A DNA stretch of 35,175 nt from positions 1-35,175 of the forward strand of contig JAHFDY010000025.1 in NCBI GenBank assembly GCA_023248735.1. Direction: 5' to 3'. Both the position numbers and the translations under genes were made by a program. The stretch's first letter is position 1; each line of letters opens with the position of its first letter. This DNA is from Myxococcales bacterium. GTDB lineage: Bacteria > Myxococcota_A > Polyangia > Polyangiales > Polyangiaceae. Of the stretch, positions 2,349 to 35,175 are shown piece after piece. The notes beneath the pieces are model-generated. The model was not told where the DNA came from. It saw only the letters and a program-made list of their open reading frames with translations, and ran no database searches.

Positions 2349-3410
2349 CTAGCCAATCGCTCTCACGCGCTTCTCAAACGTATCCTTGTCGCTTGCCTTT
2401 TCCAGCCCCACCTCAAAAGTGATCAATTTCTGTGACACAAGCCGTTCGAGCGCCATGTCCATCGTTTGCATCCCAACGCCTTGGCTCGCCTGCATCAAGC
2501 TTGGAATCTGAAACGTCTTGTTGTCGCGTATCATCGCCGCAAGCCCACTCGTTGCGACAAGCACCTCTTGCGCGGCGACCCTTCCCTGGCCGTCAGCTCG
2601 CTTCATGAGCTGCTGTGCGACGACTCCGATGAGGCTCTCAGCGAGCATCCCTCGCACCTGCGGCTGCTCTTCTGCATTGAACGCGTTGACGACGCGATCG
2701 ATTGTCGCTGGCGCGCTGTTCGTATGAACGGTCGCAAACACCAGGACACCGAAACTTGCGAGTTGAAGCGCGAGCTTCATCGTCTCGTTGTTGCGCAGCT
2801 CGCCGATCAAAATCACGTCGGGATCCTCGCGACCCGCACTTCGAATCGCGCTCGCAAAGCTACCCGCGTCCGGTCCGACTTCGCGATGCGTCACTTGTCC
2901 CTTGAGCGGCTTGTGCACGAACTCGACGGGGTCCTCAATTGTCAAAATGTGACATGCGCGGGTCTGATTAATATGACGAATCATCGCGGCGAGCGTCGTA
3001 CTCTTCCCCGAGCCTGTAGGGCCAGTCACGAGCACAAGCCCATTCCGACGTTCAGCAAGTTTACGAACGATGGCCGGACAGCCGAGCTGTTCGAGCGTGA
3101 GAATCTCCGTCGGAATTGTTCGAAACACCGCCGCGAGACCGCTCGACTTGCGAAAGTAGTTCGCGCGGAATCGAGCTTTCTCCCCATACGAGTATGCAAA
3201 GTCGAGATCGTTCTCACGAAGCACTTGGTCGCGCTGTTCGTTCGTCACGATCTCAAACAAGAGACGAGCCATCTCGTCTTCAGTCACAGCCGCCTCGCGC
3301 AAGGGCATCAGGTCACCCTTGACACGAGCGATCGGTGGATACCCAACCCCAAGGTGGAGATCACTTCCCCTGAGGCGGAGAAGGTCGTCGAACAGCGCGA
3401 AGATCTTCAT
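2349..3410 (-). CDS. PilT/PilU-like type IV pilus ATPase (353 aa)
   Basis: Cytoplasmic hexameric ATPase of the secretion/retraction superfamily. PilT powers pilus retraction at the inner-membrane base. The N-terminal PAS-like domain (about 1-100) contains the SDLHL motif. The ATPase core has Walker A GPTGSGKS (130-137), the Asp-box TIEDPVEFVH (157-166), Walker B with GELR (Glu204), and the His-box HTNSA beginning at His229. The C-terminal helical part has AAMIRDNKTFQIPSL in the place of the PilT AIRNLIRE region. The usual Asp after GEMR/GELR is Asn207 here (NNET). Length is typical of PilT (345-380 aa). Its ATG is embedded in the stop of the 599-aa paralogue (ATGA), with GGAGG just upstream, so the two are translationally coupled. 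Whether it retracts pili or serves another machine cannot be told: no pilin gene is in the window. Confidence 0.95.
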   Translation of the reverse strand: MKIFALFDDLLRLRGSDLHLGVGYPPIARVKGDLMPLREAAVTEDEMARLLFEIVTNEQRDQVLRENDLDFAYSYGEKARFRANYFRKSSGLAAVFRTIPTEILTLEQLGCPAIVRKLAERRNGLVLVTGPTGSGKSTTLAAMIRHINQTRACHILTIEDPVEFVHKPLKGQVTHREVGPDAGSFASAIRSAGREDPDVILIGELRNNETMKLALQLASFGVLVFATVHTNSAPATIDRVVNAFNAEEQPQVRGMLAESLIGVVAQQLMKRADGQGRVAAQEVLVATSGLAAMIRDNKTFQIPSLMQASQGVGMQTMDMALERLVSQKLITFEVGLEKASDKDTFEKRVRAIG

Positions 3411-5206
3411 GGTGTCCTCCCGCGCTGACCAATTTTTGACAGAAGGTCATCGGGCGACTCAGCAACGAGCAAAGCTCCCTCGATAGAGATCGATCCACGT
3501 ATGATCAATTCGGTAAGCGAATCGTCGAGCCGCACGATCCCAAAGGCCTTGCCCCGCTGCTGCAAGCTCGGAATTTGAAATGTCTTGTTCTCGCGAATCA
3601 GGCTCGCAAGTGCAAACGAGCCCGGCAGCATTTCGACGGCGGCAATCAGACCCTCTCCCTCTCGTGCCGGAAGAAGCCGTTGAGAGACAACCAATCGAAG
3701 TGCGGAGGCAAGCGTGAGCCGAACTTGTGCTTGCTCACCCGTGGGAAACAAATCGATCAAGCGATCAATCGTCTTTGCCGCGCTCGGTGTGTTCATCGTG
3801 CCCAAAACGAGGTGTCCGGTCTCCGCGGCGGCAAGCGCCATCCGCACCGTCTCGGCGTCGCGCAGTTCGCCAACAACGATGACGTCCGGGTCCTCTCGAA
3901 GGGACGCCTTAAGGGCAGTTTGAAACGACTTCGTGTGCGTTCCCACCTCGCGCTGGCTCAACATCGCCTTTTTCCGCGGGTGAATGTACTCGATTGGATC
4001 TTCGACCGTAATGACGTGATGCGTAGTTTCACAGTTCAGTAAGTTGACGAGCGCGGCAACGGTAGACGTTTTTCCATGGCCGGTTGGTCCAGTCGCAACG
4101 ATCAGGCCCTGATGGTGAGTGATTGCTTGAGCGATTTCATTTGGTAAACCAAGTGAACGAAGGGTCGGCACCTCTGTTGCAATGAGGCGGAACGTCGCCT
4201 TGATTCCACCGCGATGCCGCACCACATTCACGCGAAACCGTCCTTCGGTCTCGGTCTCAAGAGCGAAATCGCACGTTCCATCGCGCTCGAACGGCTCTCG
4301 GCATCGAGCGGGTACCAGCGGCATCACAAGCGCGGAAACCACTTCGGGGGTGAGGATCGGCCCGTGAGGCGTGAGCTCTTGCGACAGTCGAGCGAGTAGC
4401 GGGCGGCCCGCAACGACGTGCAAATCGCTCGCGCGATGTTTGCGTGCGAACGCGAGCGCTTGCACCAATGCGCTGGGTAGCACGCGGGGCGACAATGACG
4501 GCGCAAGCATCGGCGACGCTGCCGGTACGCGGGACTCCAGGTCGCGAAGCTCGCGTTCGACCGGCGGCGCGGCCGATCGCGGTGACTCCTTGCTTTCGAG
4601 GTTCCGCGACATTGGCGGCGCTTGCCGTGCAGCCACCCGATCGAGTTCAACGTCGGCGCGAGCAGCCAGCACAGCGTCGGGAATCCGCAGCGGCATCGTA
4701 TGCTCAAGCGGATCATCATCGAGTTCGAGTAATCCGCCGGGGTCGGATCTGAACGCTGGCGGTGCGTCCGACTCAAAGGGTTCGTGTATCTGATCGCGCG
4801 AGCCATCAACAATGGCGGCCATCAGCGCATCTGATGGCGGTCCTCGATCGCGATCCATTGAGGTCGCCCGCGGCTTCTCTTCGGCTCGCGTCAGAAGTAC
4901 TCGCGCCTGTACGCGCTCGCCTCGAACAACCGCGCCCACCAGAAGTGAGCCAACTCCATCCACCCGTGCGCGCCACTTCGTCGGCTTGTCGGTGAGAGTC
5001 TCGACGTAACGACTTCCACCCAGCGACATGAGCACCCCGTAGACTTCGTCCCGCGTAAGCGATCGATCGTCGACGGGCTCATATGCGTTCGCGATCTTAA
5101 CGCACGGCAGGCGCCCACTCGCAAATGCAAATTCGGACACCTCCTTCTTCAGAAGATGCGCCAGCAGATCGGTAATGCGCTTGACGACTTCGGGAGGGGC
5201 GAGCAC
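3407..5206 (-). CDS. Long PilT-like ATPase with duplicated N-terminal domain (599 aa)
   Basis: PilT-family ATPase nearly 250 residues longer than usual. Residues about 245-599 form a full PilT unit: ASDLHV (259-264), Walker A GPTGHGKT (373-380), Asp-box TVEDPIEYIH (400-409), Walker B GELRDAET with Glu447, and IRENKTFQIPSL (538-549). The His-box reads MNTPSAAKTIDR, so the conserved His is Asn472. Residues 1-105 look like a worn copy of the same PilT N-domain (SEFAF in place of SDLHL), joined by a Pro/Asp/Glu/Ser-rich linker (about 110-245). The start is GTG at 5206 with GGAT upstream. It overlaps the following 353-aa paralogue by ATGA. The shared KTFQIPSL motif suggests the two arose by duplication. 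They probably form a mixed or paired motor (inference). Confidence 0.93.
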   Translation of the reverse strand: MLAPPEVVKRITDLLAHLLKKEVSEFAFASGRLPCVKIANAYEPVDDRSLTRDEVYGVLMSLGGSRYVETLTDKPTKWRARVDGVGSLLVGAVVRGERVQARVLLTRAEEKPRATSMDRDRGPPSDALMAAIVDGSRDQIHEPFESDAPPAFRSDPGGLLELDDDPLEHTMPLRIPDAVLAARADVELDRVAARQAPPMSRNLESKESPRSAAPPVERELRDLESRVPAASPMLAPSLSPRVLPSALVQALAFARKHRASDLHVVAGRPLLARLSQELTPHGPILTPEVVSALVMPLVPARCREPFERDGTCDFALETETEGRFRVNVVRHRGGIKATFRLIATEVPTLRSLGLPNEIAQAITHHQGLIVATGPTGHGKTSTVAALVNLLNCETTHHVITVEDPIEYIHPRKKAMLSQREVGTHTKSFQTALKASLREDPDVIVVGELRDAETVRMALAAAETGHLVLGTMNTPSAAKTIDRLIDLFPTGEQAQVRLTLASALRLVVSQRLLPAREGEGLIAAVEMLPGSFALASLIRENKTFQIPSLQQRGKAFGIVRLDDSLTELIIRGSISIEGALLVAESPDDLLSKIGQRGRTP

Positions 5207-33667: not shown

Positions 33668-35175
33668 GTGGCCTACCCTGCACCGAAGTACTTCCGCCGC
33701 GGACTCCTCGCGCTCGTCGCCGCGGGCGGTGGCTTGCTCCTGATGAAACGGCGTCCACGACTGAGCGAGACACCACCCGTTGCCCCGCGATTTGAGGCAA
33801 AATCTCAGGGATGGCGGCTCCTCGGACCCGGTGGTGGTGGGGCCCTCTTTTCGCCGATCGCTCGAAAGGATTACATTTTCGTAACCTGCGACATGGGGCC
33901 CGCATTTGCCTCCCAGGACGGTGGTTTGACATGGCGCTTTGTGGATCTTGATGCGCCGGTTACTCAACGCGAATCCGCTCCAGTAGGACTGCTCGCGCTC
34001 GGTCTCGGCCTGTGGGAAAGCAATGCGTCACTCTCTGAGTGGCAATTACTCTTCCCGTCCGGCGACCGAACGCGCATCGGCCTTCACGACGACCACGCAG
34101 ACCCAGAGTTTATCAACGCGCCACACCCCATTGCGTTCGCGCAAGGACCACGCGGTTCCCTTTCCGTCATCGCCAAGTCCGACGAAGAGGTCAAGCTCTT
34201 CACGCGAGAGATAGGAAGCGACGATTGGGTCACAGAAAGAGTGCTGCGCTACCAGCCAACGGCACTGGTCAGTGTTGGTGAGATCCTATTTGCGATTGAT
34301 CCGGCGCGCGGCATCGTCAATCTGGGTGATGATCAAGTAACTTTACGCTCAAGGGGGACAACCCAACTCATCTCCAACGGATCGTCTACGTTCGCAATTA
34401 CCAACGAGGCCGAGGACGATCCGCTTGCAGGAGCAACTGAGCTTTGGCGGTCCCTCGACGGCGGTCGCACATTCGTCCGGTGTACAAGTGCGTTGAAGGC
34501 CGCCATTGGTAGCGCGCGCGTCGTAAGCATTGGTCTGCCGCCCAATCGTTCGGGGTACCTGCTCGCATCGTTCAAAACTGACGCGCGGTTCGGGATCGTC
34601 GCGAGCGAGGACGGCGGAACGTCATTCTCGGTGCTTGTTGCCGACAGCGATGGTGATCGCGCGCACAACGTGCGAGACCCGTGGATCGCCAACCATTTCG
34701 AACCGTCTTGGGCAGACGCGCCGCTAGGACTCGCGGCAAGCGACGAACGTGTGCGTGTTGCAACTGACTACGGGCGCGTGCTCGTTTCGCACGACGACGG
34801 CCGCTCATGGTTGGGAACGTATGCCACGAGAACGAGCGATCACACCGTCTCCACAACGGGGATCAACACCACCACGGCGTATGGCGTGCACACGGATCCC
34901 TTCGACCTCCGTCGGGTCATTCTGTCATCGGCGGACATCGGGGGATTCGTCAGCGAGGACGCGGGCGCAAGTTGGGAACCCTGCGAAGGCGTCCCGCGAC
35001 CGTGGCGCAACACCATGTATTGGGCGGAATTCGACCCGCAAGTTCGTGGGCGCGTGCTCGCAGCGGTAAGCAACACACACGACCTTCCGCGACCAAAAAT
35101 GTGGAGACGTCAATCTCCTTTATCATTCCTTGGCGGCATCGTTCTGTCGGAGGATGGCGGAAAAACATGGCTGCA
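33668..35175 (+). CDS. Exported BNR/Asp-box beta-propeller protein (3' end outside window)
   Basis: At least 502 residues. The N-terminus is a signal-anchor (RRGLLALVAAGGGLLLMKRR, about 10-29), so it is likely exported or membrane-tethered. Six Asp-box motifs of the type SxDxGxxW/F are visible: ASQDGGLTW (81-89), RSLDGGRTF (261-269), ASEDGGTSF (312-320), VSHDDGRSW (373-381), VSEDAGASW (428-436) and LSEDGGKTW (493-501). These mark beta-propeller blades as in sialidases, sortilin/VPS10 and GH74-type enzymes. The opening GGALFSP and CDMGPAF segments and the later SSADIGGF recall GH74/xyloglucanase-like proteins, but catalytic residues were not confirmed. GTG 33668 is the only start, since TGA lies in frame 18 bases before it. 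It is divergent from the GNAT gene. Confidence 0.88.
   Translation, partial: MAYPAPKYFRRGLLALVAAGGGLLLMKRRPRLSETPPVAPRFEAKSQGWRLLGPGGGGALFSPIARKDYIFVTCDMGPAFASQDGGLTWRFVDLDAPVTQRESAPVGLLALGLGLWESNASLSEWQLLFPSGDRTRIGLHDDHADPEFINAPHPIAFAQGPRGSLSVIAKSDEEVKLFTREIGSDDWVTERVLRYQPTALVSVGEILFAIDPARGIVNLGDDQVTLRSRGTTQLISNGSSTFAITNEAEDDPLAGATELWRSLDGGRTFVRCTSALKAAIGSARVVSIGLPPNRSGYLLASFKTDARFGIVASEDGGTSFSVLVADSDGDRAHNVRDPWIANHFEPSWADAPLGLAASDERVRVATDYGRVLVSHDDGRSWLGTYATRTSDHTVSTTGINTTTAYGVHTDPFDLRRVILSSADIGGFVSEDAGASWEPCEGVPRPWRNTMYWAEFDPQVRGRVLAAVSNTHDLPRPKMWRRQSPLSFLGGIVLSEDGGKTWL

Follow-up and report, generated by a model that had tools for sequence, protein, structure and literature searches.

A 35,175-nucleotide stretch of Myxococcales DNA (GenBank assembly GCA_023248735.1, contig JAHFDY010000025.1, positions 1 to 35,175; hereafter the window) carries two overlapping genes for PilT-like ATPases, which we call P1 and P2. 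PilT typically has one N-terminal domain (NTD) and about 345–380 amino acids. P2 (2349..3410, 353 amino acids) conforms to this layout, whereas P1 (3407..5206, 599 amino acids, two NTDs) does not. Both genes lie on the minus strand, as do all features of the two given below with window coordinates. The P1 open reading frame (ORF) runs from a GTG start at 5206, with GGGA upstream, to a stop ending at 3407, and P2, which has GGAGG before its ATG, overlaps it by the four bases ATGA (3407–3410); the genes overlap at six further loci as well (L099, L100, L105, L107, L112 and L115). Both proteins lie above the 319.1-bit cut-off of TIGR01420 (PilT/PilU), P2 with 419.8 bits and P1 with 379.7 bits in a single stretch at residues 247–587. 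Against the extension-ATPase equivalogs P1 stays below the cut-off (PilB 128.6 versus 675.65; GspE 123.9 versus 630.25).

P1 begins with an extra, diverged PilT N-terminal (PAS-like) domain that lacks the RFR arginine pair (residues 1–110; 4877..5206). It is followed by a disordered linker rich in Pro, Ser and acidic residues (residues 111–240; 4487..4876), the true PilT NTD with the motif SDLHV and with RFR kept (residues 241–350; 4157..4486), and the PilT core with the C-terminal part (residues 351–599; 3410..4156), the last of these supported by the TIGR01420 match and by a structural model. The Walker A motif of P1, GPTGHGKT (K379; 4067..4090), carries His where Ser is usual. The Walker A Lys, Asp-box Glu, catalytic Glu and both NTD arginines are present in both window proteins.

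The feature that sets the pair apart is its HIS box, which is divided between the two genes. P1 (3791..3820) keeps T463 and H465 and has N472 in place of the gamma-phosphate His, and P2 (2724..2753) has F220 and V222 in place of the Thr and the first His and keeps the gamma-phosphate His, H229, so that neither carries the full HIS box of the PilT family. We surveyed 59 sources (the window and the loci L019, L099–L115 and L177–L216), sorting P1 and P2 by gene order. A pair was obtained from 53, of which 52 are distinct (L019 is identical to L197); those without a pair either end before the core (L103, L211) or are without a second usable core (L111, L181, L186, L190). In 46 of the 53 pairs, neither partner has lost a residue of the ATPase triad (Walker A Lys, Asp-box Glu, catalytic Glu), and 43 of these 46 (42 of 45 distinct ones) show reciprocal HIS-box loss, in which P1 keeps the Thr and the first His and P2 keeps only the last His. 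The triad is broken in both partners in two pairs. Frames are open in five tandems (L198, L200, L201, L206, L213) in which one partner or both have broken ATPase residues. We also considered whether the P-loop His of P1 (GHGK) stands in for the lost HIS-box His, and found no general rule, given that P1 proteins with GAGK or GQGK have lost that His too.

For comparison we used 109 PilT sequences, 108 from L020–L098 and the canonical PilT of the window's own genome. The Thr is present in 104, the first His in 102 and the last His in 108, and the five Thr losses are the five second genes of related tandems. Apart from conservative swaps, the last His is the only canonical residue lost in P1, and the losses in P2 are confined to reference positions 170–236. 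This comparison left out 14 loci (degenerate, truncated or unclear) and is uninformative on the Thr itself, because P1 and P2 were sorted by the Thr column. In PilT, the Thr of one chain touches the gamma-phosphate His of the next where the interface is closed, at a C-alpha distance of about 5.7 Å, and the two residues show evolutionary coupling (PMC6858323); the Thr of the adjacent unit has been proposed as the proton acceptor (PMC6858323; see also PMC5424180, PMC13142100). In Pseudomonas aeruginosa PilT, H229A abolished twitching (PMC6858323).

In a FastTree phylogeny of 212 sequences (L193, L195, L197, L198, L213 and short rows left out; several deeper nodes weak), P1 and P2 each form one clade with support 1.0. 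Their sisters (0.89 for P1, 0.95 for P2) come from the same three tandem loci, L021, L027 and L050, which belong to Thermoanaerobaculia and Holophagales. Two further tandems, from a Proteobacteria metagenome-assembled genome (L020) and from Auribacter (L023), fall near the P2 side of the tree with weak support. Such tandems are thus present in other phyla too. The second gene lacks the Thr and the first His in all five tandems, as P2 does; the first gene of L021, L027, L050 and L023, unlike P1, keeps the last His, and that of L020 has lost it. Among 111 PilT ORFs from 80 loci, all five losses of the Thr fall on second genes of tandems (5 of 30 such genes, stemming from perhaps three lineages), against 0 of the 81 other ORFs. 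The last His is lost in this set in L019, which is P1 itself and was scored as single with its P2 broken in the assembly, and in the first gene of L020, whose second gene lost the Thr. From these few lineages, the order of losses suggested is that of the Thr in the second gene before the His in the first. We rejected the simpler view of the pair as a plain PilT–PilU, given that P1 and P2 form their own clades and that a separate, canonical PilT tandem of the genome (L117) has complete HIS boxes. The first genes of L027 (2405–4024) and L050 have another N-terminal extension (LFGRIALHYKL...LGEIL..GVLT), followed by a Pro/Ala-rich linker; an N1/MshEN domain suggested there by eye was dropped, no Pfam family exceeding its cut-off, and the N-terminal extensions of the L021, L027 and L050 first genes gave no match to NTD models (best E 0.33).

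The second distinctive feature is the extra domain of P1. Neither Pfam (E ≤ 10) nor NCBIfam (E ≤ 1) lists a family that reaches into residues 1–240. Aligned as single sequences, both NTD copies of P1 resemble each other no more than expected by chance (score 29, matched or beaten by 498 of 2000 shuffles); the score of the extra NTD against the P2 NTD is reached by 3 of 2000. Profiles and predicted fold were used because the single-sequence alignment of the copies was not above shuffles. With a profile built from 19 orthologous domains, hhalign matched the extra NTD to the PilT NTD profile over its whole length (97.6%, E 1.5e-11, 110 columns), to the second NTD of P1 at 91.3% and to the P2 NTD at 64.1%; these NTD profiles differ in depth, and the percentages cannot place the origin of the extra NTD in P1, P2 or another PilT. 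Controls gave at most 0.34% (six PilT core pieces) and at most 0.33% (40 column shuffles against each of the three NTD profiles). AlphaFold2 modeling of residues 1–112 from two sequences reached a best pLDDT (predicted local distance difference test) of 82.5, with two of five models at about 82 and three at about 40. The best Foldseek matches of the predicted domain are PilT2, DotB, PilT and PilU, and VIA-align superposes it on PilT4 residues 2–106 (Z 13.8, root-mean-square deviation 2.4, 103 residues) and also on the PilB and GspE NTDs. In the full-length P1 model both NTD copies share the element order H-E-E-E-H-H-E-E-E, and residues 109–239 have a pLDDT below 50, that is, they are disordered. 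P1 residues 1–110 are a second PilT NTD.

A preliminary description, made from the DNA letters, had seen in the ORF at 3407–5206 a PilT-like ATPase whose residues 1–105 copy the pattern of the true N-domain at about 245–345 and are followed by a linker. The ORF, its family, the linker and the copied domain are all borne out, the domain by its profile match and by the structural superposition that the description had proposed as a check, though the single-sequence alignment is at chance level. It had further described SDLHL as degraded to SEFAF and the copy as eroded. SEFAF does stand at residues 24–28, but the true copy reads SDLHV, and erosion is contradicted by the selection on the domain. 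Against three relatives, the closest given first, the ratio of nonsynonymous to synonymous substitution rates (dN/dS; rough, synonymous sites being near saturation) is 0.06, 0.17 and 0.28 for the extra NTD, compared with 0.11, 0.61 and 0.59 for the linker, 0.05, not computable and 0.34 for the true NTD, and 0.04, 0.07 and 0.09 for the core. L18, G63, G64, W78 and G86 are invariant in the 19 extra-NTD sequences. In L198 and L213, paralogues with lost ATPase residues, the extra NTD scores 135.1 and 128.7 bits with its hidden Markov model (HMM), inside the usual range, while the cores score 253 and 196 compared with 383–420 in 30 of 33 rows. Purifying selection, invariant residues of its own and a score kept in these two paralogues are the reasons why the extra NTD is best read as a conserved, apparently non-catalytic module. 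The role suggested for it in the preliminary description, regulatory or partner-docking, would fit, because both RFR arginines are present in 0 of the 19 sequences (one of them in four).

The layout is not an assembly artefact, given that the extra NTD recurs in close genomes (18 of 59, counting the window's own) and, by profile, across the class. It has a match at E ≤ 1e-3 in 96 of the 289 class genomes, many matches being weak or partial, and at E ≤ 1e-5 in 32 of 377 genomes of the phylum, 29 from the same class and 3 from another. Of 20 weaker matches viewed with their surroundings, 17 have the extra NTD upstream of a PilT core and an adjoining second PilT core; the exceptions are L186, L190 and L193, and in L181 the second core is split into two frames. 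DNA patterns miss variants, and the counts they give are therefore lower bounds: the P1 P-loop pattern occurs in at least 54 of 289 class genomes and the P2 HIS-box pattern in at least 35 of the 377 genomes of the phylum. Every one of these 35 belongs to the same class (104 genomes), and the other classes gave 0 of 273 for a pattern that misses variants. The search for the duplicated layout that the preliminary description had called for thus confirms its recurrence. Its proposal of a distinct motor subtype holds as far as P1 is one clade that recurs in the class; it gave no strand and overlooked P2, the two-gene system and the split HIS box. Two of the exceptions, L186 (3151–4731) and L190 (2359–4281), combine an extra NTD-like domain and linker with canonical ATPase motifs and a full HIS box, and no second PilT core lies in the stretch covered; they represent another architecture with a duplicated NTD. 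In another class of the phylum, G427, G480 and G537 have weak extra-NTD profile matches in frames of 725–1028 amino acids.

As far as sequence tells, the pair appears to be a distinct two-gene PilT variant with PilT-like working. Our preferred reading, to which we give a probability of roughly one half, is that P1 and P2 are two subunits of one PilT-type motor that would assemble together, with the extra NTD as a tethered adaptor. They would share one ring, most simply in alternation. Each P2 site (K136, catalytic E204, H229) would be completed by the Thr (T463) of a neighbouring P1, and the P1 sites, without the gamma-phosphate His and facing a P2 without the Thr, would bind ATP with little or no turnover, which would leave three active and three silent interfaces per ring. 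The extra NTD would lie outside the catalytic ring and dock it to a partner, for instance the platform of the pilus, a second ring or some regulator. Counting in favour of this reading are the adjacent genes, the reciprocal HIS-box losses at residues that touch in PilT, the Thr losses of the 80-locus set, which fall only on second genes of tandems, the sisters of P1 and P2 at the same three loci, the two pairs with the triad broken in both partners, the full HIS boxes of L186 and L190, which have no P2 beside them in the stretch covered, and the conservation of the extra NTD. A stricter form of this plan is an obligate heterohexamer in which a single inter-subunit site is divided between two PilT paralogues, catalytic and silent interfaces alternate, the non-catalytic subunit carries the extra NTD as a tethered docking arm, and the loss of the Thr in the second gene came first and made the last His of the first gene dispensable; we put this forward tentatively, with doubts that outweigh our belief in it.

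Several observations weigh against the shared motor. Three intact pairs (L193, L202, L209) break the reciprocal rule, although L193 is probably another PilT tandem, and in 5 of the 53 pairs the ATPase triad is broken in only one partner. The first genes of the sister tandems L021, L027 and L050 still have the last His. PilT H229A has also been reported as partly functional (PMC12607626), and loss of this His therefore need not silence P1. No pil gene was recognised among the neighbour families common to at least five of 19 loci, and of the 21 main ORFs (at least 150 amino acids) that the window has besides the pair, the 20 scanned with Pfam, all but the one at 33668–35173, gave no pilus family. 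An action of the pair on a pilus would thus follow from family membership only, because no pilus gene was recognised near it. Finally, PilT and PilU, which are also encoded in tandem, have been reported as separate homohexamers (PMC6821130, PMC6762196) that are perhaps stacked (PMC12607626).

These last reports speak for the main rival, in which P1 and P2 would be separate homohexamers stacked on one platform in the manner of PilT and PilU, with the extra NTD bridging the rings. A salt bridge between PilT K36, by its number in the NTD, and PilU D366 is cited in PMC13142100, and the canonical tandem that the genome also carries points the same way. Yet half of the Thr–His contact would be missing at all six interfaces of each such ring, and full HIS boxes are usual in the tandems of the 80-locus set (29 of 30 first genes, 25 of 30 second genes). 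We regard separate rings as unlikely.

The extra NTD might instead be an internal switch. It would compete with a true NTD for binding to the following subunit's core and so keep the ring inactive as long as it stays bound. Its predicted fold is that of a domain that normally packs on the core of a neighbouring subunit, and the absent RFR pair and the long tether would suit such a role. The HMM scores kept in L198 and L213 count against it, because paralogues with lost ATPase residues would need no switch, and we consider this explanation quite improbable. Least probable of all is that the two proteins have little or no ATPase activity and serve the canonical PilT as scaffold or regulator, with HIS-box changes from relaxed decay: 7 of 53 pairs do have triad losses in one or both partners, and at L116 the genome has what we take to be a PilB-like gene and, close by, a canonical PilT, but the other 46 pairs keep the whole triad in both genes, the HIS-box losses are specific and reciprocal, and the dN/dS of the cores is 0.01–0.09. 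For the degenerate pairs a scaffold role is possible.

Compared with PilT and PilU, the pair keeps the tandem order and, in both genes, the TIGR01420 score, Walker A, Asp box, catalytic Glu and RFR arginines. It differs in the HIS box split over two genes, in the extra NTD and linker of P1, and from the homohexamers reported for PilT and PilU (PMC6821130, PMC6762196) in the mixed ring that we propose. PilB and GspE resemble P1 in having an extra N-terminal domain ahead of the NTD–core motor; in P1, this extra domain duplicates the NTD of the motor itself. The N1 domain of PilB and GspE is another fold, and Pfam (E ≤ 10) lists none in P1. In F1-ATPase (alpha3beta3), catalytic sites alternate with non-catalytic ones, and the sites are completed in trans. 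The plan proposed for P1 and P2 would be alike in its presumed alternation and different in architecture. Among the matches listed from openly licensed papers, no publication on the P1–P2 pair was recognised. The question of mixed hexamers has been raised for PilT and PilU, and in the systems examined the answer was negative (PMC6821130, PMC12607626, PMC6762196). P1 and P2 offer a naturally occurring example in which two residues that touch across a subunit interface have been lost reciprocally, and both the mixed-hexamer question and the proposed Thr–His proton relay can therefore be tested by exchanging single residues between P1 and P2. If our preferred reading is true, it would describe a pilus-type motor with two unlike subunits.

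In a survey of 50 pairs (L193 and L197 left out), the extra NTD is in one frame with the core in 46 P1, a count that is biased because nearly all loci were retrieved through the extra NTD. The linker of these 46 is about 15–542 amino acids long (median 117), as estimated from HMM coordinates. In L200, L206 and L208 the extra NTD and the core are in different frames (frameshift, error or split gene). By eye, the P1 C-terminus of eight loci (L101, L102, L106, L108, L109, L112, L113, L114) has a Pro-rich stretch and then a short tail like LFxRAGxLFGKKG, which is not obvious in the window's genus. Helicase and enolase genes lie upstream in nine of 19 loci and a DUF362 gene is found in five of 19, the families being named by Pfam from the window copies. 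Directly downstream of P2, the window has a short minus-strand ORF (2037–2303) without a counterpart among the neighbour families of at least five loci. The genome also encodes another PilT-like protein (L118, 4649–5881) with the unusual P-loop GAAGNGKST.

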